Assembly (NCBI RefSeq): GCF_014647375.1 | Contig: NZ_BMPB01000022.1 | Span: forward strand, 1-64,000 | Source: Parabacteroides faecis | GTDB lineage: Bacteria; Bacteroidota; Bacteroidia; Bacteroidales; Tannerellaceae | DNA: 64,000 nucleotides | Reading direction: 5' to 3' | Part shown: piece by piece, positions 25,450 through 44,860 of the stretch | Layout of the letters: each line of letters starts with the position of its first letter | Position numbering within the stretch: position 1 is the stretch's first letter | Position numbers and translations under genes: made by a program | The notes under the pieces: model-generated | Database searches by the model: none | What the model saw: the letters and a program-made list of their open reading frames with translations, nothing else | Told to the model about the DNA's origin: nothing

Positions 25450-26034
25450 TCAAACAATTCTGACTAAGGCCATCAACAATGGCAAATAATCTTTCAGTTC
25501 GGTACGAAGAAGTTTCAATGCCTGTTGAATACGGTAATCGACTGTTTTAGACGAAACATTCAGTTTTTCTGCAATCTCGCTATAAGTCATATTCTGGAAC
25601 CGGTTCATTTCAAAAGCTTCCCGATAGCTTGCCGGCAAGCGGGACAAGGCTGTTTCAATATTTCTTGCCAGTTCTTCCACGATGTAAAAATCAGGATCCT
25701 CATACTGAGCCTGCATATTTACAGAGATAGTATCGACTATCCGCTGTTTCAGCTCGTTACGATTAATCAATGTAAGACATCTGTTCTTTACGGCCCTAAA
25801 CAGATAATTTTTAGGAGAAGACTCGATCACCTGCATGGAACTATTCTCCCAGAACCAAACCATCACATCCTGTACTATCTCCTGTCCGTCATCAAAATCG
25901 ACAAATCGTTTAGCATACGCACATAACAAAGGATAGTAACGCATAAACAAAATATCGAATGCTTTCACATCACCAACCTGGATCCTTTGAAAAAGAATCT
26001 CGTCGTTTGTTTTGTCTGTTACAGTAGAAAGCAT
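25450..26034 (-). CDS. ECF sigma-70 factor (Bacteroidales PUL type)
   Basis: A 194-residue extracytoplasmic-function sigma factor. Region 2 lies at about 20-90 (FDILFMRYYPLLCAYAKRFV, then EIVQDVMVWFWEN) and region 4 at about 125-185 (LPASYREAFEMNRFQNMTYS, then TVDYRIQQALKLLR). It is divergent from the fecR gene, the classic partner, and a downstream SusC with an STN domain completes the trans-envelope pathway. Its start codon lies 13 bases from the left arm of a 15-bp inverted repeat that may bound an invertible promoter segment. Confidence 0.9.
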   Translation of the reverse strand: MLSTVTDKTNDEILFQRIQVGDVKAFDILFMRYYPLLCAYAKRFVDFDDGQEIVQDVMVWFWENSSMQVIESSPKNYLFRAVKNRCLTLINRNELKQRIVDTISVNMQAQYEDPDFYIVEELARNIETALSRLPASYREAFEMNRFQNMTYSEIAEKLNVSSKTVDYRIQQALKLLRTELKDYLPLLMALVRIV

Positions 26035-26047
26035 ATAAAAAGTATTT

Positions 26048-26062
26048 AGTTCTAGTAAGACT
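26048..26062 (-). repeat. Left arm of a 15-bp perfect inverted repeat
   Basis: AGTTCTAGTAAGACT on the plus strand is the exact reverse complement of the arm at 26195-26209. The matching sequence breaks sharply on both sides, as expected for recombination sites. Confidence 0.85.
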
Positions 26063-26194
26063 ATGGTTAATATGGTTGATTTTGTGGGCGTTGATATATC
26101 TAAAAGCTTGTATTTTTTAACATTATAAAAACTTAATCGGAATGTAATAGGTCAATGTGTTGAAAAATGTTATTTTTGCACAACTATATACATG
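26063..26194. promoter_or_regulatory. Candidate invertible promoter segment (132 bp)
   Basis: This AT-rich DNA, bounded by the 15-bp inverted repeats, lies between divergent sigma and fecR genes. It contains the only strong -7 motif of the region. In the present orientation the promoter would point to fecR-susC-susD; inverted it would point to the sigma gene with a leader of about 38 bases. Invertible promoters flanked by short inverted repeats are known in Bacteroides. That this one flips is inferred, and no invertase gene is in the window. Confidence 0.55.
26171..26178 (+). promoter_or_regulatory. Candidate -7 element facing fecR
   Basis: TATTTTTG followed by CA matches TAnnTTTG and lies inside the inverted-repeat segment. 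The -33 position shows no TTG, so the promoter may be weak or need an activator or the ECF sigma. Confidence 0.4.
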
Positions 26195-26209
26195 AGTCTT
26201 ACTAGAACT
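26195..26209 (+). repeat. Right arm of the 15-bp perfect inverted repeat
   Basis: AGTCTTACTAGAACT pairs exactly with the arm at 26048-26062. The same sequence therefore lies in sense orientation in the leaders of both divergent genes. Confidence 0.85.
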
Positions 26210-26300
26210 CTTTCAGTAATCAAAAAAAATTATCACAAAAAAACACTTTTTCGTTTAGGAGGTTTCCCTGTTCATTAGTCTTAATTATAAAAGAGACAAA

Positions 26301-27323
26301 ATGGACACACAAAAACATATAGACGAACAAGCATTATTGGACTATTTTTCCGGTACTCTTTCCCCTGTCCAAAAACAGGAGGTGGAAGCCTGGATACAGG
26401 AAACTGAAGAAAACCGGAAAATAGCCCGGGATATCGAATACATCTACTTTGCCACAGATACGATCAATACGATCAAATCCATCGATTCGACCAAAGCATT
26501 AAAGGAGGTAAAAGTCAGATTCAGCAAAAAAGAGAATAATAAACGATCTTTCATTCTCCAATTACAACGGATCGCGGCGATTCTTGTTATACCCTTATTA
26601 ATCAGCACACTCTATTATGCAACAAAAGAAGAACCGGTCGAATTCATAGAAATCAGGACTAATCCGGGAATGGTTGCAACCGTTAATCTCCCTGACGGCA
26701 GCAAGGTATGGCTCAACTCCCGCTCTTACCTGAAGCATCCGCAGAAATTCACAGGAGACACACGAAACGTTGAAATGGAGGGTGAAGCTTATTTTTCCGT
26801 ACAAAAAGATAAATCGAAAAAATTCATAGTAAACACTCCTTTTAATCTGAAAGCGGAAGTGTTGGGTACAGAATTCAATATGGAAGCTTATAAAGAGAGT
26901 AATAAGGTGGTCACGACGCTGATCTCCGGCTCTGTAAGACTCTCATTCCAAAACAAAAACAATACAGAAGAGACGATGATCATGAAACCCAATGATGAAA
27001 TCTCCTATAACTCAAAAACCAGAGGAGTCAGCCTGAGCAAACCTTATCTTCCTACGCTAACAGCCTGGAAAGACGGTTTGGTTATTTTCAGAAACACTCC
27101 ATTTGAAGACGCATTAAATGTATTAAGTAAACGATTCAATGTTGAATTCATCGTAAAGAATGATCTTCTATATGAAAACTCATTTACGGGACCTTTCGAC
27201 GGGCAACATCTGCATCTTATACTTGAACACTTCCGCTTATCATCCGGCATTCATTATAAGTTCGTTGATCCGGAAACAGGAACAGATAAAATATCAGAAA
27301 AAACAATTGTTGAACTATATTAA
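26301..27323 (+). CDS. FecR family anti-sigma regulator
   Basis: A 340-residue inner-membrane regulator. The N-terminal cytoplasmic anti-sigma part covers residues 1-80. One transmembrane helix (IAAILVIPLLISTLYYA) is at about 86-104. The periplasmic FecR domain (VNLPDGSKVWLNSRSYLKHP, FIVNTPFNLKAEVLGTEFN) is followed by a C-terminal STN-like DUF4974 segment (LVIFRNTPFEDALNVLSKRF). It should hold the divergent ECF sigma inactive until signalled by the SusC partner. GAGACAAA before the ATG is a weak ribosome binding site, as usual here. Confidence 0.92.
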   Translation: MDTQKHIDEQALLDYFSGTLSPVQKQEVEAWIQETEENRKIARDIEYIYFATDTINTIKSIDSTKALKEVKVRFSKKENNKRSFILQLQRIAAILVIPLLISTLYYATKEEPVEFIEIRTNPGMVATVNLPDGSKVWLNSRSYLKHPQKFTGDTRNVEMEGEAYFSVQKDKSKKFIVNTPFNLKAEVLGTEFNMEAYKESNKVVTTLISGSVRLSFQNKNNTEETMIMKPNDEISYNSKTRGVSLSKPYLPTLTAWKDGLVIFRNTPFEDALNVLSKRFNVEFIVKNDLLYENSFTGPFDGQHLHLILEHFRLSSGIHYKFVDPETGTDKISEKTIVELY

Positions 27324-27437: not shown

Positions 27438-27457
27438 AGCTTGTTTGGCGACAAGCT
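27438..27457 (+). other. Stem-loop 2 ahead of susC, same loop TTGGCG
   Basis: AGCTTGT and ACAAGCT form a perfect 7-bp stem around TTGGCG (27445-27450), the same loop as the preceding hairpin. It lies between fecR and the susC start, 13 bases after stem-loop 1. Confidence 0.7.
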
Positions 27458-27500
27458 CCAGCAAATGAATTTTTTTAACTCTAAAATCACTTACAAATCT

Positions 27501-30500
27501 ATGACAAATTATTTTAGCATCCAACATTTCAGGATGGTGAATTCATCGTTTATTGTCCTGAAAAAAATACCATTATGTATGAGACTCACCGCAATAATGT
27601 TATTTGTATGCATCGGACTGGCATATGCTTCCGAAAGTTACAGTCAATCTGCAACATTAACTCTGAACGTTAACAACAAAACGGTACAAGAGGTCCTGGA
27701 TGAAATTGAGAAACAATCTGAGTTTCATTTCTTCTACAACAACAAACAGGTAAATACGAATCGTGTTGTTTCTATTAAAAGTAAAAAAAAGGATGTATTC
27801 AACGTCCTTGAACAATTATTTAACGGAACGGATATCAGTTATAAGGTTCTGGATAAAAGTATTATCCTCTCACCCAAAGAGATGCTGATGAGTGCTGTCG
27901 TACAGCAAGCCATAAAAAACATATCCGGTACTATTACCGATAGCAAGGGCGAACCGATCATCGGAGCAAATGTATTGGAGAAAGGATCTACAAACGGTAC
28001 CGTAACCGATATCAACGGTAAATTCAGTTTATCCGTGCCCAATAAATCGACATTGGTAATCTCCTATATCGGATACGTATCCAAGGCTATTATCGTAGGA
28101 AACCAGACAGTCTTCAACATACAATTGACAGAAGACACTCAAAACTTAAATGAAGTAGTTGTAACGGCGTTAGGTATCAAACGTGAAGAAAAAGCCTTGG
28201 GATATGCAGTTCAAAAAGTAGATGCGAAAGCATTAACCTCTGCAAAAAGCATCGATGTCGGAACTTCATTAACCGGAAAAGTGGCAGGTTTAAATGTTAA
28301 GAACAGTACCGAATTCAATGAAGCTCCCTCTTTGAAATTAAGAGGAGAAACTCCCATATTGATCATCGACGGTATCCCATATGGAAATATGACATTGAAC
28401 GAAATTGCACCTGACGATATCGAATCCATCGATGTTTTAAAAGGCGCCACCGCTTCTGCTTTGTACGGAGCACGCGGTACAACAGGTGCGATCATGATCA
28501 CTACCAAGAGAGGTTCACAAAATGAAGGTATCAATGTAGAGATCAACAGTAACACAATGTTTTTCGCAGGATATCTGGCATTTCCGGAAGTACAATCATC
28601 TTATAGTAGAGGTTATGGTGGAAAATACAATAGCGATTATGTATGGGGAGACAAATTGGATATCGGAAGAACGGCTATTCAATACGATCCGGAAACATTC
28701 GAGTGGAGGGAAATGGAGTTAACATCCAAAGGAAAAAATAACTTTAAAAACTTCCTCCAATTCAGTGCGATCACAAACAACAATGTCAGTGTCTCGCAAA
28801 AAGGGAAATACGGCTCGTTCAGAACATCATTGACCCACGTATTCAACAAGGGACAATATCCGAACCAGAAACTGAACAAAATAACTTATACAGCCGGAGG
28901 TGAAATGAGTTACAAAAACTTCAAACTGGAAGGATCAGCGTCATACAACAAACGTGTGTCATCAAACGACAACGGTTCCGGTTATAGCGGTAGCTATATT
29001 TACGACATGGTAATTTGGGGTGGCACAGAATACGACGTACGTGATTATAAAAACTATTGGGTTGAAGGCAAAGAAGATGAACAGCAAAACTGGTACGATA
29101 ACAGTTGGTATGATAATCCCTGGTTTAAAGCGAATGAAGTAGTCGATGCTTATGACACCGATATATTGAATGTGTATATGAACTCATCCTATGAAATTAC
29201 TCCGTGGTTAAAAGCCATGTTAAGGGGAGGCCTTGATTTTTATTCTAAGAAAAATCAATGGAGAAACGCAAAAAGCGCAAACTACGCATGGGACAAAAAC
29301 GGTTTCTTCGGAATCAGCAGAAATTCGGGGTATAGTATTAACACCGATGCTATGTTGATGGCTGATAAAACATGGGGTAAACTAAATATGAATGTTTTAG
29401 CCGGAGGAAATATCTACTTCTATTCTGATGACAAATTAAGAAGTACAACAGCCGGAGGACTCACTATTCCTGGATTTTACTCTCTGAAAGCCAGCGTCGA
29501 TCCTATTTCTGCCAGCAGTGAATTAAAGAGGAAAAGAGTAAACAGTCTATATGGCAAACTTTCATTGTCATGGGCTAGCACTTATTTTCTGGACGTAACC
29601 GGACGTAACGACTGGTCTTCCACACTATCCAAAGAGACGCGTTCTTATTTCTATCCTTCCTTAGCTGGAAGTATAGTACTTTCAGAGATTATCACATTAC
29701 CTGAAGTTTGGAATTTCTGGAAAATAAGAGGTTCATGGACAACCTCCAAACAAGATGCTGCAGTTTACGATAATAATAATGTTTACTCTGTCTCTACCAA
29801 TGTTTGGGATGGATTAGGTACGGCTTCTTATCCTTCATCTGTTATCGGAGGTAATGTACGTCCTAAAAAATCTATGGTATATGAAGTCGGTACAGCTGTT
29901 AATTTCTTCAATAACAGATTATACGCAGACTTTGCATATTTCAGAAAACTTGAATCAGACTTTATCATTTCCGGCGGTATAAGTTCTGCAACAGGTTTCA
30001 GCTCCGTTCAGGTCAACTTTAAAGAAGAAAGATTGAGAAACGGTTATGAATTGACCATAGGGGGAAGTCCTATAAAAAATAAAGATTTCCAGTGGGACAT
30101 TCTTACAAACTGGGGACATGATAAATATTCTTACTTCAAAATCGACCCAGATTATTCAACTAAAAAACCCTGGGTAAAAAAAGGTGAAAGCTGGGATTGG
30201 TTCGATATATATGACTGGGACAGAGATCCGGACGGAAATATCATACATAACGGAGGTATTCCGGTAAAACAAAACTTCAAAACCAAAGTAGGAAATCTGA
30301 CTCCCGACCTGGTTTGGGGTATCACCAATACTTTCAGATATAAAAACTTTACACTCAACTTCACTATCGACGGACGTATTGGAGGCATGTCATACTCACG
30401 CACCCATCAAATGTTATGGAACTCCGGTGCACATAAAGACTCCGACAATCAATGGCGATATGAAGAAGTGGTCAATGGAAACAAAACATTCATCGGAGAA

Positions 30501-30896
30501 GGTGTCAAAGTTGTATCCGGTAGTGTTGAACGTGACCCGGATGGAAACATCCTCAGCGATACCCGCGTTTTCGCTCCTAATGATGTTGTAGTATCTTATG
30601 AAGCATATATTTCAAAATACCATGACTCAACCAGTCGTCCCAGCCGCCAGAATGTATTAGATGAAACATTCTTCAAACTAAGAAATCTGACATTTACTTA
30701 TGACATACCTCAATTGTGGTGTGGAAAAATAGGAATGAAAGCGGCATCGGTCAGCCTGACAGGCCAGAATTTATTCTTATGGGCCAAAGAATACAAATAC
30801 GCAGACCCTGACAAAGGAGGAGATAGCAGTGGTTACGAAAGTTTGAATTCACCTTCTCAACGATACATCGGTTTTAACATAAAAGCAAACTTCTAA
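27501..30896 (+). CDS. SusC/RagA TonB-dependent transporter with STN domain
   Basis: About 1131 residues from the ATG at 27501; an alternative ATG is at 27465, and the frame is open further up to a TTG inside stem-loop 2. A signal sequence (MRLTAIMLFVCIGLAYA) precedes the STN domain (LTLNVNNKTVQEVLDEIEKQ), which contacts the FecR anti-sigma. Then follow a CarboxypepD_reg-like domain (GTITDSKGEPIIGANVLEKG), the plug (VVVTALGIKREEKALGYAVQ) and the barrel. The family box RGTTGAIMITTKRG is present. It leads the susD-like gene by 11 bases. The import substrate is inferred to be phosphorus-containing from the downstream phosphoesterases. Confidence 0.9.
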   Translation: MTNYFSIQHFRMVNSSFIVLKKIPLCMRLTAIMLFVCIGLAYASESYSQSATLTLNVNNKTVQEVLDEIEKQSEFHFFYNNKQVNTNRVVSIKSKKKDVFNVLEQLFNGTDISYKVLDKSIILSPKEMLMSAVVQQAIKNISGTITDSKGEPIIGANVLEKGSTNGTVTDINGKFSLSVPNKSTLVISYIGYVSKAIIVGNQTVFNIQLTEDTQNLNEVVVTALGIKREEKALGYAVQKVDAKALTSAKSIDVGTSLTGKVAGLNVKNSTEFNEAPSLKLRGETPILIIDGIPYGNMTLNEIAPDDIESIDVLKGATASALYGARGTTGAIMITTKRGSQNEGINVEINSNTMFFAGYLAFPEVQSSYSRGYGGKYNSDYVWGDKLDIGRTAIQYDPETFEWREMELTSKGKNNFKNFLQFSAITNNNVSVSQKGKYGSFRTSLTHVFNKGQYPNQKLNKITYTAGGEMSYKNFKLEGSASYNKRVSSNDNGSGYSGSYIYDMVIWGGTEYDVRDYKNYWVEGKEDEQQNWYDNSWYDNPWFKANEVVDAYDTDILNVYMNSSYEITPWLKAMLRGGLDFYSKKNQWRNAKSANYAWDKNGFFGISRNSGYSINTDAMLMADKTWGKLNMNVLAGGNIYFYSDDKLRSTTAGGLTIPGFYSLKASVDPISASSELKRKRVNSLYGKLSLSWASTYFLDVTGRNDWSSTLSKETRSYFYPSLAGSIVLSEIITLPEVWNFWKIRGSWTTSKQDAAVYDNNNVYSVSTNVWDGLGTASYPSSVIGGNVRPKKSMVYEVGTAVNFFNNRLYADFAYFRKLESDFIISGGISSATGFSSVQVNFKEERLRNGYELTIGGSPIKNKDFQWDILTNWGHDKYSYFKIDPDYSTKKPWVKKGESWDWFDIYDWDRDPDGNIIHNGGIPVKQNFKTKVGNLTPDLVWGITNTFRYKNFTLNFTIDGRIGGMSYSRTHQMLWNSGAHKDSDNQWRYEEVVNGNKTFIGEGVKVVSGSVERDPDGNILSDTRVFAPNDVVVSYEAYISKYHDSTSRPSRQNVLDETFFKLRNLTFTYDIPQLWCGKIGMKAASVSLTGQNLFLWAKEYKYADPDKGGDSSGYESLNSPSQRYIGFNIKANF

Positions 30897-30907
30897 AGGT
30901 AGAATAT

Positions 30908-32470
30908 ATGAAAACAACGAAATATATAAAGCAATCTCTATTTGCTTTCAGTGCAATAGGAATATCTATGATCTGGAATGGCTGCACATCTTCTTTTGAT
31001 GATCTGAATACCAATCCGGATGCAACAACAAAAGTGTCCCCGGCAATGCTTGCAACTAAAGTGATACTGGATCATGTAAAATCAGCGAGCAGTGATAATG
31101 GTGAATTCATGTGCAAACGCATGTTCTGGGGAGAACAAATGGATAATTATCAATACAATCGTGTGGAAAAAGGGAGCTTCAGTGCCATACAGGGACTTAC
31201 CAATGCACAAAAAATGGTTGAATTATCCTCCGAATCCAATAAAGATGCTTATACAGGTCTCTATTATTATTTAAAGGGCTGGGCATTTTACCGGACAACA
31301 ATGGATATGGGAGACATTCCCTATAGCGAAGCGCTTCAGGTCAATGAGTTCAGATATCCTAAATATGATGAACAAAAAGAGGTATTCAAAGGGATACTCG
31401 ACGATCTGGAACAGGCAGACAGTCATTTTGCCAAAGCGACGGAAGGTATCAGCGGTGATCCGTTTTACAACGGCGATCCTGCTAAATGGAGAAAAGCGAC
31501 CAATGTGCTCCGCCTGAAAGTATTAATGGCTTTACAGAAAAGAGCGGATGACACACCGGAGTTACAGATCAAAGAAAAATTTGCACAAATTGTAAAAGAA
31601 GGGAATCTTTTTGAAGGGAATGATGATAACCTCCAGGTTACTTATTCCAATAAAGATGGCCAGAAAAATCCTTTTCATCAGGATCTAACAAGAAGTATCA
31701 ATGTGTATGCAGGAACAACCACTTTGATCGATCCGCTGAAAAAGTACAAAGATTATCGGTTATTCTCTTACTTTGCCCCGATGCAGGCTCTGACAGATCC
31801 AATATATCTGCCGAAAGGTGAAACCTTGTTGGAAAAAAACGATTGGAATGCCTATCAGGGAGTTGAAGCCGCAGGATTATTCAACACGGAACAGAAAAAG
31901 ATCTCTAACAAAATGCATTGCCGCCCCAACGATATTTATCGCACAGATTATGTCGGAGTTCCTTCTATACGATTGGGATATGCTGATATGAATTTTGTAT
32001 TGGCCGAAGCTGTTGAAAGAGGATGGATCAGCGGATCTGCTCAAAATTATTATGAAGAAGGTATCCGCGCCTCGTTTGAATTCGTACGTACGACGGTTTC
32101 TTCTCCGGAATATAATCAGGGAATGACCATCACAGACGAGTATATCACCCAATATCTAAAGGGAGAAGATGTAGCCTATGCTACAAACGGGACATCACTC
32201 GACCGGCTGAAACAAATATGGATGCAGGCATTCTTAGCCTCTTATTTCCACCTGGCCTGGGACTCTTATTATGATTACAGACGTACCGGTTATCCGGAAT
32301 TACCGATCAACCCGGAAACAAACCTGAATGACGATAAGTACAAAATTCCGGTAAGATGGTTATATCCTGAATCAGAAACGAATTACAATAAGGAACAACT
32401 GATCAATGCAGTTAACCGCCAATGGGGAGGAGCCGAAGACGTGAATAAAATTATGTGGGTATTAAAATAA
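30908..32470 (+). CDS. SusD/RagB-like outer-membrane lipoprotein
   Basis: A 520-residue lipoprotein of the shorter SusD-like_2 group. The lipobox Cys is near residue 26 (WNGCTSSFDDLNTNPDATTK). Typical features are YYLKGWAFYRTTMDMGDIPY and the C-terminal WDSYYDYRRTGYPELP. This subgroup is often found with SusC proteins in loci that take up non-glycan or unusual ligands. It forms the outer-membrane pair with the SusC 11 bases upstream. Two hairpins follow before the hydrolase genes. Confidence 0.9.
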   Translation: MKTTKYIKQSLFAFSAIGISMIWNGCTSSFDDLNTNPDATTKVSPAMLATKVILDHVKSASSDNGEFMCKRMFWGEQMDNYQYNRVEKGSFSAIQGLTNAQKMVELSSESNKDAYTGLYYYLKGWAFYRTTMDMGDIPYSEALQVNEFRYPKYDEQKEVFKGILDDLEQADSHFAKATEGISGDPFYNGDPAKWRKATNVLRLKVLMALQKRADDTPELQIKEKFAQIVKEGNLFEGNDDNLQVTYSNKDGQKNPFHQDLTRSINVYAGTTTLIDPLKKYKDYRLFSYFAPMQALTDPIYLPKGETLLEKNDWNAYQGVEAAGLFNTEQKKISNKMHCRPNDIYRTDYVGVPSIRLGYADMNFVLAEAVERGWISGSAQNYYEEGIRASFEFVRTTVSSPEYNQGMTITDEYITQYLKGEDVAYATNGTSLDRLKQIWMQAFLASYFHLAWDSYYDYRRTGYPELPINPETNLNDDKYKIPVRWLYPESETNYNKEQLINAVNRQWGGAEDVNKIMWVLK

Positions 32471-32618: not shown

Positions 32619-34664
32619 ATGAAACATATTATCATTTTTCTTTTTGCTTATTTATTTGTTATTCCGGTCACAGCCCAACAATCCTCTCAAAACCTGGCCC
32701 TTCATCTGGACGGCAAAGACAATAATGTCCGCACCGGTATCGGATATCTCAATGGCTCATGGACCCTCGAAGCATGGGTCAAAGGCGATGACAATTCCTG
32801 GAAAGAACAGGAAGTTCTTTTTGGCGGAGGCGAATATAGCCTGACAAACAGGGCAGATTATCTGCCTCTGGTTATCGAGAACGGAAGACTTCACAGTACA
32901 TGGCCCGATCTGTGGTCAAAAGAAGTACTGGACGACCAATGGCATCATGTAGCACTAAGTTGTGACGGTGTTGCCACCCGGCTTTATCTGGACGGAGAAG
33001 TCATCGATAGTAAAATAACAGCCATGTCTGTTCTTCCCGGAGCATTAGGAGTAAATGAAGACGATCTTACAACCTTCGGAGGATTAATGGATGAAGTCCG
33101 TATCTGGAATTCCGCCGTGCCGACTGAAACACTCAAAGAATGGATGGGCAAACCTTTGGAACCCACTCACCCGCAATTTAAAACACTGGTCGCATACTAT
33201 AACTTTGACGACGGCATAGAAGATGTTTCGACAAACTGGGTCGGTAAGGGAGACCAGGCATACCATATCAGAAACGGAAGGCTCCAATATAAAGGTAGCA
33301 TTCCAATGGCATACACAGTTCCCAATGACAATCCAAAATTCATAAAACCTGCTAAACAGCAAGAATTATTCAATGCAATCGTAATAGATAGCGAATGGGA
33401 TGCAGATCAGGGTAGTTCGGACGACCAGATCCTTAAACTCCGAATCGCCGTAACCGGAGACCGAAATCCATTACGCCTGACAGAACTTGAACTCGACCTG
33501 TCTGATGTCACAACACTGTCCGACATATCGCAGATCCATATCTATCATACCGGGAAAACCGCCCGGTCAAACATTAAAACAGAACTATTCGGTCAGGGGG
33601 AAATACCTAAAAAGAAAATGATATTTAAAGATGAACAAGGAGTTCTGACATTAACACCGGGTATCAATTACCTGCTAGTAACAGCTGACATAGCCGAAAA
33701 AGCCACCGTTGGTAACAAGATCAAAATATCCGTCCCCTCTTTCAAGCTGGGAGAGACGACCTATATACCGGAGACAAGTGAAAGGAATATCGATAAAAGG
33801 ATCAGCGAAAACAGCCAGAACAATCCCAACATCATAAAAGTACTGCAATGGAATATCTGGCATGGAGGTAACCACGTCGGAGACGACGGTCAGGCACGTG
33901 TCATCGATCTGGTAAAAGCGACAAATGCCGACATTATCACGATGCAGGAAGGTTACGGTAGCCAGAAACGTATTCAGGATTCACTGGGATATTATATGCA
34001 AACACCATCGCTCCAGGATAATCTGGTTCTTTTCAGCCGGTATCCTATAATAGACATACCGACAAAGAAAACATTCAATTCCAATCCTGTCAAATTAACA
34101 CTGCCAGGCAATCGCCCCTTGTTAGTCAACGCCTGTTGGTTACGTTATGCCTATCAACCGGAATATTCCTGCAATTATCCTTGCATAGGACATAATACTT
34201 CTACCTGGGTAGCAGAAGATGCCGCCCGAGGATTAGAAGACATGAAATATATTCTGGAAAAGGATACAAAACCTTATCTGACAGAAGGTGAAGATACTCC
34301 AATCATCATAGGAGGCGATTTCAATTCTTGCAGCCATCTGGATTGGACAAAAAAAGCAGCGCCGATCCATTTCGGTTACGGACCTGTCCCCTTCCCTATT
34401 TCCCAATATATGCTCAACCAAGGTTATAAAGATAGTTTCAGGGAAATAAATCCGGATGAAATAGCTCGCCCGGAAGGGACCTTTGCTGTTATTTACGGAC
34501 ACTTGCAGGTTAGCCGGATCGACTTTCTCTACTATAAAGGAAATAATATCCGGGCCGTTTCTTCCAAAATTGTAAAAACAACTCCGGAGATCGACGATGT
34601 ATGGGCATCAGACCATGCCGCTGTACTGACAACATTTGAACTGACGCCTCTTTCAGGCAAATAA
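32619..34664 (+). CDS. Secreted LamG / BNR-associated / endonuclease-exonuclease-phosphatase protein
   Basis: A 681-residue modular enzyme. A signal peptide ends near residue 20. A laminin-G/concanavalin-like domain (about 25-200) is followed by a domain resembling BNR_assoc_N (about 250-390), and then by an endonuclease/exonuclease/phosphatase (EEP) catalytic domain (about 405-681). Catalytic positions are all visible: WNIWHGG near 411, QEGYG near 442, GGDFNS near 566 and ASDHAAV near 664. The fold cleaves phosphodiesters, as in DNase I, sphingomyelinase and inositol phosphatases. The lectin-like modules suggest a glycan- or lipid-linked substrate. It is the first of four consecutive phosphoesterase genes; the exact substrate is not readable. 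Confidence 0.8.
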   Translation: MKHIIIFLFAYLFVIPVTAQQSSQNLALHLDGKDNNVRTGIGYLNGSWTLEAWVKGDDNSWKEQEVLFGGGEYSLTNRADYLPLVIENGRLHSTWPDLWSKEVLDDQWHHVALSCDGVATRLYLDGEVIDSKITAMSVLPGALGVNEDDLTTFGGLMDEVRIWNSAVPTETLKEWMGKPLEPTHPQFKTLVAYYNFDDGIEDVSTNWVGKGDQAYHIRNGRLQYKGSIPMAYTVPNDNPKFIKPAKQQELFNAIVIDSEWDADQGSSDDQILKLRIAVTGDRNPLRLTELELDLSDVTTLSDISQIHIYHTGKTARSNIKTELFGQGEIPKKKMIFKDEQGVLTLTPGINYLLVTADIAEKATVGNKIKISVPSFKLGETTYIPETSERNIDKRISENSQNNPNIIKVLQWNIWHGGNHVGDDGQARVIDLVKATNADIITMQEGYGSQKRIQDSLGYYMQTPSLQDNLVLFSRYPIIDIPTKKTFNSNPVKLTLPGNRPLLVNACWLRYAYQPEYSCNYPCIGHNTSTWVAEDAARGLEDMKYILEKDTKPYLTEGEDTPIIIGGDFNSCSHLDWTKKAAPIHFGYGPVPFPISQYMLNQGYKDSFREINPDEIARPEGTFAVIYGHLQVSRIDFLYYKGNNIRAVSSKIVKTTPEIDDVWASDHAAVLTTFELTPLSGK

Positions 34665-34683
34665 TACATTAAACTAAATACGC

Positions 34684-35754
34684 ATGAAAAAAGGATTATT
34701 TTTATCAGTCATCGCTTTACTGAACCTGATGACAATGAATGCACAGGTGCAGCCTGTGCAACCCAAGTTGACAGACGACAGATCATTCTCCATGATCTTG
34801 TTGCCCGACCCCCAGAGTTACACCAAATTCGATGTAAACCAGCCACTATTCGAACTGATGACGGCATGGACCGCCAACAACAAAGAGAGACTGAATATCG
34901 AGGCCGTTCTTTGTACCGGCGACCTGGTAGAACAAAACGAAATCCGTATTCCTGACGGAGTGAACGGAAACCAGACCAGCGAAGAACAATGGAAAGCTGC
35001 CTCACAGGCATTTGCCCGGCTGGATAATAAATTGCCTTATGTGGTCTGCACCGGAAACCATGATTACGGATATGAAAAAGCAGAGAACCGTCTGTGCCGT
35101 CTACCGGAGTATTTCCCGTCAGAAAGAAATTCCTGCTGGAGAAATTCGCTGGTTGAAGTAGGTAACAATTATCAGGGAATCCCGACACTCGAAAACGCAG
35201 CTTATGAATTTAACACTGAAACATGGGGTAAAATACTGGTGGTCTCTCTGGAATTCGCGCCACGCGACGAAGCCATCGAATGGGCTAAAGCTGTGACAGA
35301 GAAACCCAAATATGCCAATCACAAAGTGATCCTGCTGACCCACTCCTTCCTGACTGCAGACGGAAAACGGCGCCTGAAAGAAAACTATAAGATATCTCCA
35401 GCAAACTATGGAGAAGCCATTTGGCAAAAGCTGGTTTATCCGTCGAAGAATATCTGCCTGGTTGTTTGCGGACATGAATGTGAAATCGCTCCGCATAAAG
35501 ACAATGTCGGTTTCAGCATCGAAAAGAATGCAGCCGGAAAGGATATCCCGCAAATGATGTTCAACGCCCAGACTGCCGATGGCTTCTGGCATGGCAACGG
35601 TGGCGACGGCTGGCTCCGTATCATGGAATTTATGCCTGACGGACAGACAATCAAGATCAAAACATTTTCTCCACTTTTCGCCATTTCGCCGACAACAGCC
35701 GACAAATCCTGGAGAACGGAATCGTATGACCAATTCGATATTACTATAAAATAA
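34684..35754 (+). CDS. Secreted calcineurin-like metallophosphoesterase
   Basis: A 356-residue protein with a signal peptide (residues 1-20). Metal-site motifs are LLPDPQSYTKF (a D-x-Q variant of the first motif), CTGDLVEQNE, CTGNHDYGY, LLTHSFL and CGHECEIAPH. The family includes periplasmic phosphomonoesterases and phosphodiesterases of the purple acid phosphatase fold. It follows the LamG-EEP gene by 19 bases and should act on a product of that enzyme. Confidence 0.85.
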   Translation: MKKGLFLSVIALLNLMTMNAQVQPVQPKLTDDRSFSMILLPDPQSYTKFDVNQPLFELMTAWTANNKERLNIEAVLCTGDLVEQNEIRIPDGVNGNQTSEEQWKAASQAFARLDNKLPYVVCTGNHDYGYEKAENRLCRLPEYFPSERNSCWRNSLVEVGNNYQGIPTLENAAYEFNTETWGKILVVSLEFAPRDEAIEWAKAVTEKPKYANHKVILLTHSFLTADGKRRLKENYKISPANYGEAIWQKLVYPSKNICLVVCGHECEIAPHKDNVGFSIEKNAAGKDIPQMMFNAQTADGFWHGNGGDGWLRIMEFMPDGQTIKIKTFSPLFAISPTTADKSWRTESYDQFDITIK

Positions 35755-35799
35755 TAATAAAAGAACTTATGATAATTAGGGAGTAGCTCCAATTATACA

Positions 35800-35807
35800 T
35801 ACCTTTG
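35800..35807 (+). promoter_or_regulatory. Possible internal promoter before the alkaline-phosphatase-type gene
   Basis: TACCTTTG matches TAnnTTTG 30 bases ahead of the start codon. A small GGAG/CTCC inverted repeat lies upstream and no TTG is at -33. It could allow separate expression of the last two genes. Confidence 0.3.
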
Positions 35808-35836
35808 GTGAACTAATACAAAATTAAACACATATC

Positions 35837-36739
35837 ATGAAAAAAAGAAACTTACTTCTTATTTTGGTTTTAACCATTGTAACGATCAGTTCGGCTTTTG
35901 CTGCCAAACCAAAAGCAAAACATGTAATCTGGATCGGTCTCGACGGCTGGGGGGCTTACAGCGTAGAAAAAGCAGAGATGCCGGTGACCAAACAATTAAT
36001 GAAAGACGGTTCTTACACATTGAAAAAACGTTCCGTTCTGCCTTCTTCCAGTGCTGTGAACTGGGCTTCTATGTTTATGGGTGCGGGACCGGAGCTTCAC
36101 GGATACACCGAATGGGGATCAAAAACACCTGAACTTCCTTCACGTGAATTGAATCAACATGGTATTTTCCCAACAGTTTTCCAACTGTACCGCGACGCTG
36201 CCCCGAAAGCAGAAATCGGTTGTGTCTATGACTGGGACGGCATCAAATATCTGGTAGATACACTGGCACTCAGCTATCATGCCCAGGGACCGGATTATAA
36301 TAAATATCCAACCGTTTTGACAGAAATGGCGGTGAAGTATATCACAGAGAAAAAGCCGAACCTGTTTGCCGTTATCTTCGACAATCCGGATCATGTAGGT
36401 CATGCCGACGGACACGACACACCTTCTTATTACAATACGCTGAAAGAGTTGGATAAAAACATCGGAAAAATCGTCGACGCCGTTAAACAGGCCGGTATGC
36501 TGGACGAAACAATCTTTGTTATCACAGCAGACCACGGTGGGATCAATAAGGGACACGGAGGCAAGACCATGCTGGAAATGGAGACTCCGTTCATCATCTC
36601 CGGAAAGAACGTAAAGAAAGGTTATTGCTTTGACAATGTCAGCATGATGCAGTTCGACTGCGCCTCTACCCTTGCAGCTTTATTAGGTCTGACCCAGCCT
36701 CAGGTTTGGATCGGTCGTCCAATGCCGGTATTCAAATAA
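35837..36739 (+). CDS. Alkaline-phosphatase superfamily phosphodiesterase (NPP type)
   Basis: A 300-residue secreted protein, signal peptide residues 1-22. It shows alkaline phosphatase/nucleotide pyrophosphatase features: IGLDGWG at the first metal site, a Ser nucleophile in LPSSSAVNWASM near residue 75, DNPDHVGHADGHD near 190 and TADHGG near 232. It is shorter than most NPP enzymes, lacking extra domains. It fits cleavage of nucleotide or other phosphodiester bonds. It is 12 bases upstream of another metallophosphoesterase. Confidence 0.82.
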   Translation: MKKRNLLLILVLTIVTISSAFAAKPKAKHVIWIGLDGWGAYSVEKAEMPVTKQLMKDGSYTLKKRSVLPSSSAVNWASMFMGAGPELHGYTEWGSKTPELPSRELNQHGIFPTVFQLYRDAAPKAEIGCVYDWDGIKYLVDTLALSYHAQGPDYNKYPTVLTEMAVKYITEKKPNLFAVIFDNPDHVGHADGHDTPSYYNTLKELDKNIGKIVDAVKQAGMLDETIFVITADHGGINKGHGGKTMLEMETPFIISGKNVKKGYCFDNVSMMQFDCASTLAALLGLTQPQVWIGRPMPVFK

Positions 36740-36751
36740 TATAGAAAAGAG

Positions 36752-37747
36752 ATGAAAAGATTATTTATAAGTATCTTATGCCTGTTAGGTGGTCTGTTAA
36801 ATGCAAACGCCCAGCAACCAGCACTTCAATTCAATAAGGACGGAAAATTCAAGATCGTTCAGTTTACCGACGTACATTATATTCATAATAACCCGAAATC
36901 GGCTATCTCGATTGAAAGGATCAATGAAGTGTTGGATGCTGAAAAACCGGACCTGGTCCTTTTTACCGGCGATGTCATTTATGGTAAACCGGCGGAAGAA
37001 GGAATGAGAACCATTCTCAACCTGGCCTCTAAACGCAAAATACCTTTCGGTATGACATTCGGTAACCATGACAATGAACAGGGGCTGACACGTACGGAGT
37101 TGTTCGATATCATCAAAACGATCCCTTACAACCTGACCGATTCCGTTGCAGGCGTATCAGGTGCCAGCAATTATATCCTGCCGGTCAAATCATCCGACGG
37201 AAAGAAGGATGCAACCGTCCTCTATTGCATGGACTCTCATTCTTATTCACAGATCGGAGGAATCGGCGGATACGATTACATCAAGTTCGACCAGATACAA
37301 TGGTATCGTGAGAACAGTGCCCAATATACAAAACAGAACGGCGGAACACCTGTTCCATCTCTGGCATTCTTCCACATCGCCTTGCCGGAATACAACCAGG
37401 CTGCATCCGACGAAACCGCGATTCTGGTAGGAACACGTAAGGAAAAGGCTTGCGCTCCGCAACTGAATTCCGGCCTGTTCGCTTCCATGAAAGAGATGGG
37501 TGATATCCAGGGTGTATTTGTCGGACACGACCACGATGACGATTATGCCGTTTATTGGAAAGGCATCTTACTGGCTTACGGTCGTTATACAGGTGGCGAC
37601 ACGGTTTATAACAACCTGACCAACGGTGCACGTGTGATCGAAATGACAGAAGGTGAAAATGGCTTCAAGACCTGGATCCGCCTGAAAGACAATGAAATCA
37701 TCAATAAGGTGAATTATCCTTCGGACTTTATTAAGAAAAAAGACTGA
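36752..37747 (+). CDS. Secreted metallophosphoesterase (Icc/PhoD-like)
   Basis: A 331-residue protein with signal peptide residues 1-20. It has the standard calcineurin-like motifs: QFTDVHYIHN, LFTGDVIYGK, TFGNHDNE, FFHIALPEY and VGHDHDDDYAV. It is the last gene of the locus and ends at a terminator. It is probably a periplasmic phosphatase that releases phosphate from products of the earlier enzymes. It is distinct from the gene at 34684, which has a variant first motif. Confidence 0.87.
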   Translation: MKRLFISILCLLGGLLNANAQQPALQFNKDGKFKIVQFTDVHYIHNNPKSAISIERINEVLDAEKPDLVLFTGDVIYGKPAEEGMRTILNLASKRKIPFGMTFGNHDNEQGLTRTELFDIIKTIPYNLTDSVAGVSGASNYILPVKSSDGKKDATVLYCMDSHSYSQIGGIGGYDYIKFDQIQWYRENSAQYTKQNGGTPVPSLAFFHIALPEYNQAASDETAILVGTRKEKACAPQLNSGLFASMKEMGDIQGVFVGHDHDDDYAVYWKGILLAYGRYTGGDTVYNNLTNGARVIEMTEGENGFKTWIRLKDNEIINKVNYPSDFIKKKD

Positions 37748-44786: not shown

Positions 44787-44860
44787 GGGGCATTAGCTCA
44801 TCTGGCTAGAGCGTCAGACTGGCAGTCTGAAGGTGATCGGTTCGAGTCCGATATGCTCCA
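44787..44860 (+). tRNA. tRNA-Ala (anticodon GGC)
   Basis: A 74-base cloverleaf: acceptor GGGGCAT/ATGCTCC with one G-U pair, D arm GCTC/GAGC, anticodon arm TCAGA/TCTGA with loop CTGGCAG (anticodon GGC, reading GCC), and T arm ATCGG/CCGAT with loop TTCGAGT. The 3' CCA is not encoded. A terminator follows 15 bases later. Confidence 0.95.

Follow-up and report, generated by a model that had tools for sequence, protein, structure and literature searches.

A putative promoter inverton between divergent ECF sigma factor and fecR genes in Parabacteroides faecis

Among the closest described systems are the Mpi capsule (CPS) invertons and the SusC/SusD promoter invertons of Bacteroidales, the Tsr0667-controlled set of Bacteroides fragilis included: in the account given in PMC4747536, 13 regions are inverted by Mpi, and the targets of Tsr0667 comprise three SusC/SusD clusters plus nine further regions, its shufflon being mentioned also in PMC11852207. 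The -7 consensus TAnnTTTG is given in PMC4747536 and PMC12632263, the latter listing the kinds of invertible loci as well. Inversions have further been tied to SusC/SusD and capsule loci (PMC10939037), many inversion sites have been reported in P. distasonis (PMC5903667), and repeat-motif groups have been described in a defined community (PMC11892184), in a main text in which the terms Parabacteroides, sigma factor and SusC occur 0 times. Passages of PMC13114119 deal separately with sigma/anti-sigma pairs and with a capsule inverton. In the passages of this literature drawn on here, Bacteroidales invertons are discussed mostly as switches of surface genes, capsule and SusC/SusD (PMC10939037, PMC12632263); at the locus described below it is a regulator that would be switched. 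An inverton between divergent ECF sigma and fecR genes was not found in the titles and abstract openings searched, and the tables of earlier studies may list one.

The locus belongs to a stretch of 64,000 nt of Parabacteroides faecis (GCF_014647375.1, NZ_BMPB01000022.1, here contig C22, positions 1-64,000, forward strand), hereafter the window. An ECF sigma factor gene (25450-26034, minus strand; 194 aa; TIGR02985, 160 bits) is divergent from fecR, which encodes an anti-sigma factor or signal transducer of 340 aa with FecR and FecR_C domains (26301-27323, plus strand). On the same strand follow genes for a susC-like TonB-dependent transporter with an STN signalling domain (27441-30896, start codon provisional), a susD-like lipoprotein (30908-32470) and four phosphoesterase-type proteins (32619-37747), namely an Exo_endo_phos protein with laminin-G (32619-34664), two Metallophos proteins (34684-35754 and 36752-37747) and a Phosphodiest/Sulfatase protein (35837-36739). 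With ECF sigma factor, FecR and STN-bearing TonB-dependent receptor all present, the locus is thus of the FecI/FecR signalling type, as its FecR_C domain and the STN domain of its SusC also indicate; it departs from that type in the divergent placement of sigma gene and fecR and in the putative invertibility of the sigma promoter.

Between the two genes, 13 nt from the sigma gene, lies the left arm AGTTCTAGTAAGACT (26048-26062, plus strand) of an inverted repeat, a putative recombination site; the right arm AGTCTTACTAGAACT (26195-26209, minus strand) is the same putative site in reverse orientation. The preliminary description had reported a perfect 15-bp repeat around 132 bp, and complementarity is indeed exact (15 bp, 100%), with 132 nt between the arms (26063-26194) and 147 nt from start to start. 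A perfect inverted repeat of at least 15 within 400 nt arose in 1 of 2000 dinucleotide shuffles of positions 25700-26600, and this pair is the sole one of at least 15 with a spacing of 20-600 nt in the window. The arms are of the size and perfection usual for invertons (10-40 nt, perfect or near-perfect), and, to judge by its sequence, an inner promoter near one arm reads outwards: the -7 box TATTTTTG (26171-26178, plus strand) follows the TAnnTTTG consensus, leaves 16 nt between its end and the right arm, and stands about 120 nt from the fecR ATG. It is the sole TAnnTTTG of the sigma/fecR intergenic region and points toward fecR, as had also been noted, so that the segment appears to be in its sigma-OFF state here. 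No -33 element was recognised for this promoter, a Sigma-70 type promoter scan gave no excess (6 found, 6.1 expected from shuffles), and scanning the window with the Rfam models, gathering thresholds applied, returned a tRNA at 44787-44860 and nothing else. Between the -7 box and fecR no terminator-like site was found on the plus strand; the fecR-facing state may therefore not be a plain OFF.

With the Mpi capsule invertons (PMC4747536, PMC12632263) the element has in common the TAnnTTTG box and would share the ON/OFF flip of one promoter and a trans-acting master invertase (of serine type for Mpi), yet its output would be a sigma factor gene and not a capsule operon. With the SusC/SusD invertons, including the Tsr0667 set (PMC4747536), it shares short inverted repeats, a -7 promoter and SusC/SusD genes nearby, and, as in the Tsr0667 set, one recombinase may serve many distant loci; its promoter, however, stands between a divergent ECF sigma gene and an anti-sigma operon, not directly before susC. 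The device is of a known kind, then, the variant being a proposed sigma gate that a divergent anti-sigma operon shares.

To place the repeat, site patterns were counted in the P. faecis genome against reversed-pattern controls. The general site AGTTCTNNNNGAACT had 90 matches against 1 in the control, many of them on both strands, and AGTTCN5RRACT had 186 against 50. The window arm, AGTTC(N5)AGACT, deviates from the strict palindrome AGTTC(N5)GAACT, which we take to be the repeat class named in older B. fragilis literature; its 5-bp centre is identical within the pair and locus-specific, as is the rule in the AGTTC(N5)GAACT family. The narrower class that includes it, AGTTC(N5)RGACT, shows no enrichment in number (40 sites, with 39 for the reversed control), but 16 of its 40 sites form 8 close inverted pairs. 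The AGACT end recurs in two other close inverted pairs (C3:301196/301375 and C5:83041/83509). In the 6.66-Mb genome no exact copy of the 15-mer exists besides the two arms, and a search with 2 mismatches leads to the first of these pairs.

Inverted AGTYY(N5)RRACT pairs, taken from the window and from stretches picked by eye for closely spaced inverted sites, number at least 36, later ones having possibly been missed, for the places of AGTTCN5RRACT are known up to contig C9 and those of the two narrower patterns throughout. The 36 distinct pairs are 141-1652 nt apart, 30 of them with perfect arms; an alternative right arm of one element (L131 5065/5246) was dropped, which reduced 37 pairs to 36. 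The distance from the end of a -7 box to an arm is 14-19 nt in 23 of the 36 pairs listed (shuffled segments: mean 0.41, maximum 3), and the spacing and box position of the window element match this anatomy. Among the same 36 listed pairs, a SusC gene starts within 350 nt in 20 and an ECF sigma gene in 6, the gene classes being assigned by phmmer against the window proteins. Together with four pairs in which one arm has a mismatch (L170-L173), these six, window included, raise the sigma-gene pairs to at least ten; the nine further ECF sigma genes of P. faecis with an AGTTC pair directly upstream are those of L114, L116, L120, L124, L134 and L170-L173. The design had at first been called unusual, but the window switch does not stand alone: it is one of at least 36 such pairs, six of those listed being at an ECF sigma gene, and the four pairs with an arm mismatch stand before further sigma genes. 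With an inverted pair before so many sigma genes, a chance flip would decide the capacity for nutrient response, and the window locus adds to this a promoter common to a sigma gene and its anti-sigma operon. The exact inverton pattern had 0 matches in viral contigs. In B. fragilis Q1F2 the AGTTC(N5)GAACT-type site had 27 matches against 2 reversed controls, and it is found also inside a SusC/SusD cluster (L161).

Relatives were compared with one assembly per species, both orientations being therefore seen between species only. In a search of the genus the region was present in 10 of 39 genomes, that of P. faecis included, and of 124 family genomes 3 hold the exact arm pair at a spacing of 118-148 nt: P. 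faecis, G009 and G013, the segments of the latter two being those of P. gordonii (L036) and P. goldsteinii (L038). In both species the arms are unchanged and the inner segment has diverged. The P. goldsteinii segment aligns forward with that of the window (score 63, reached in 0 of 1000 shuffles; reverse 11). That of P. gordonii aligns in reverse, with a modest score, to the window (25, 1/1000 shuffles; forward 18, 82/1000) and in reverse also to P. goldsteinii (23, 0/1000; forward 19, 21/1000). Two relatives lacking the repeat, G038 (reverse 45, 0/400; forward 13) and P. massiliensis (reverse 28, 0/400; forward 13), are likewise reversed relative to the window, and of the 12 repeat-less relatives aligned with the segment they alone beat all shuffles, the other ten not clearly doing so. 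A single orientation in all relatives would have spoken against inversion; instead, P. goldsteinii is forward, and P. gordonii and G038 are reversed. Since the P. gordonii segment holds no TAnnTTTG on either strand, its promoter is weak or different, and the comparison supports inversion but not equal promoter strength. Among seven other P. gordonii pairs compared with their P. faecis counterparts, two are opposite, the sigma inverton L114/L183 (opposite 63, same 20) and L131/L185 (each 0/500 shuffles), and five are in the same orientation, three clearly (L130/L184, L119/L186 and L124/L188, each 0/500) and two weakly (L138/L189, 1/500; L121/L187, 9/500). As site family, -7-to-arm anatomy and opposite orientations in relatives agree, we consider the 132-bp segment very probably an invertible promoter.

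Which gene the promoter serves can be judged from relatives without the repeat. From one set of 75 loci 17 were taken up and 14 kept. No fecR match was obtained for L041, L043, L044 or L023, and L025 is remote, with a sigma factor at 36%. The repeat-less relatives, 14 in number, are L019, L022, L037, L039, L040, L042, L045-L049, L101, L105 and L107, with identical intergenic sequences counted once (L017/L038, L018/L036, L020/L037, L021/L105 and L024/L101). In 12 of these 14 divergent sigma/fecR loci TAnnTTTG points toward sigma, L045 having none and L046 having it toward fecR. Flipped in silico, the window segment would bring its -7 box to 44 nt from the sigma ATG, the short leader that had been foreseen, against 43 nt in G038 and P. 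massiliensis; the P. goldsteinii segment, flipped likewise, gives 49 nt, as in L037 and G015. These distances match those of the nearest repeat-less relatives, so a flip would restore the sigma promoter at the place it has there. In more distant relatives the distance varies (27 nt in L039, 40 in L040, 16 in L048), and it was left unused where the set sigma start misses the ATG (L042, L045, L046, L047, L049, L101 and L107). The ancestral direction of the promoter is thus toward sigma, and with an ancestral role in driving sigma an ON/OFF switch of sigma is a better reading than a symmetrical alternation.

Overall, we suggest, with a probability of roughly 0.7, that the segment is a promoter inverton of the Bacteroidales type, through which a trans-acting recombinase brings about phase variation of an ECF sigma gene; the element would most likely gate sigma, which would be off in the P. 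faecis assembly. A recombinase acting in trans, probably of tyrosine type, would flip the 132-bp segment at the two 15-bp sites. In the left-facing state a housekeeping promoter 44 nt upstream of the sigma ATG would allow sigma to be made, which in turn would transcribe fecR-susC-susD and the phosphoesterase genes from an ECF promoter at 26254-26280, under the control of FecR and the SusC STN domain. In the right-facing state, that of the P. faecis assembly, sigma would have no visible promoter and the uptake system would be off or basal, and read-through into fecR would add anti-sigma. Flipping within a strain, the transcription states, the recombinase and the use of the 26254-26280 promoter by sigma are what we infer here. 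Repeat-less relatives with a sigma-facing promoter are natural material for comparing a switching with a non-switching form of the same circuit.

The predicted ECF-type promoter core, TTTAGGAGGTTT...TTAGTC (26254-26280, plus strand), lies upstream of fecR and outside the segment. Its TTTAGGA does not vary among the 14 loci aligned, those of the window and 13 relatives, and the second block, AGTC, is present in 12 of the 14, B519 and T. forsythia differing; the alignment covers 14 of 17 distinct divergent loci, L046, L049 and L107 being left out with TTTAGGA readable in all three. The combined pattern has a single match in the genome, at 26254-26280. Its position and conservation suggest a promoter of the cognate ECF sigma factor. 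With this promoter outside the segment, fecR-susCD need not depend directly on the inverton, and a strict alternation of sigma and fecR-susCD by the segment promoter, as first proposed, is rejected; that the segment promoter drives fecR-susCD directly in the fecR-facing state is possible. Of the original reading, therefore, the invertible promoter very probably stands and the symmetrical switch between sigma and anti-sigma/transporter does not.

A looser form of the same idea gives the segment two outputs: facing left it would drive sigma and a signal-dependent transporter, facing right it would drive fecR-susC-susD directly, independently of sigma and constitutively, with an excess of anti-sigma. 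If true, cells could switch heritably between an inducible and a constitutive mode of one operon, and some points are consistent with it: the box faces fecR both in the window and in P. goldsteinii, the way of about 120 nt to the fecR ATG is free of terminator-like sites on the plus strand, and among the ten sigma invertons found it is only in the window that a divergent fecR lies across the segment from sigma. At eight of the nine others fecR lies behind sigma in the same orientation, and L124 has no adjacent fecR. These other loci are also what weakens the proposal. A -7 box stands 14-19 nt from an arm in 8 of the 10 (L120 and L172 are without), and of these eight boxes two point toward sigma (L134 and L170) and six away, the window included; L114 and L124 have an extra sigma-facing box, 44 and 152 nt from the arm, respectively. 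The promoters so parked elsewhere face either the ends of convergent genes or genes assigned to neither fecR nor susC, so that facing fecR may be a by-product of the layout. As fecR moreover has a conserved ECF-type promoter of its own, we regard direct drive from the segment as unlikely, if still the strongest competitor of the sigma gate.

More improbable in our judgement is that the inverton is a fossil, its inversion past and its deviant arms now without an acting recombinase, so that each strain is fixed. The departure of the arms from the strict palindrome would fit this, as would two loci in which the right arm is missing and the box points toward sigma: G038, whose placement in the sigma plus FecR tree is weak (66), and L037, which keeps an arm-like sequence by sigma and falls inside the P. 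goldsteinii/P. gordonii group, nested among repeat-bearing species with support 98. For L037 the simplest reading is a loss of the repeat that left the promoter toward sigma. Decaying arms, however, would be expected to differ, and both are unchanged in three species in which the segment has diverged; two other P. faecis pairs are, besides, opposite in P. gordonii. Least credible of all appears a non-inverting dyad to which a regulator binds, part of the left arm then being older leader sequence. An arm-like sequence does occupy the equivalent place upstream of sigma in the repeat-less G038, P. massiliensis and L037, and the arm has the 7-mer AGTCTTA in common with the ECF-type promoter region (26254-26290); the repeat may thus derive from an earlier leader sequence. 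A mere binding site, though, would explain neither the differing orientation of the inner segment between relatives nor the membership of the site in a paired, genome-wide family.

For the sigma gate, a recombinase must be sought outside the window. In a profile search of the genome PF00589 had 23 matches, 22 over the cut-off and none on contig C22, in agreement with the earlier remark that the window holds no recombinase, at least of this tyrosine family; a trans-acting invertase would indeed be needed, and the 22 PF00589 proteins encoded elsewhere are the candidates. In 18 regions around their genes no AGTTC-type site was found beside a recombinase. One candidate of 311 aa (C1:630543-631475, in L148) combines PF13102 and PF00589 and has orthologues at 75-76% in G009, G013 and G038 only, the next best genomes reaching 51-55%; these three are also the only other genomes of the 39 with at least 60 AGTTCTNNNNGAACT matches, a coincidence that close kinship could explain. 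In B. fragilis, no open reading frame of L161-L168 had a recombinase as best match among our own query proteins. The tyrosine recombinase genes of L149, L151 and L160 each lie near a DUF3575 protein gene, and that of L150 has a neighbour of like size, with no AGTTC site nearby.

Several other loci have an invertible look. At L130:5040-5610 (C10:57039-57609) an AGTTC inverton lies inside fecR, its segment carrying the FecR N-terminus: of two divergent fecR-susC operons one encodes a FecR of full length (314 aa), the N-terminal part being absent from that of the other, and a flip in silico swaps them. The same inverton is present in P. gordonii (L184) in unchanged orientation. A similar putative intragenic anti-sigma inverton is seen in another genus, in B. 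fragilis Q1F2 (L165:5479-5939, at about 2.6 Mb): there an ECF sigma gene and a fecR-susC-susD operon diverge from a perfect AGTTC pair, which encloses a 5' reading frame taken for a fecR N-terminus. At L177:4019 and L178:3689 (C1:100518 and C1:135688) identical inverted sites, 35 kb apart, each separate a fecR-susC operon from a sigma gene, and recombination between them would swap fecR-susC cassettes between sigma genes. Possibly another cassette switch is L137:5021-6687 (C12), where an inverted AGTTC pair 1.65 kb apart, by a susC-susD operon, encloses fecR and, at one arm, a short SusC-like frame. Finally, L161:5544-18973 of B. fragilis Q1F2 holds five AGTTC-type sites, three susC-susD pairs and a sigma/fecR pair, in a layout resembling a SusC/SusD shufflon.
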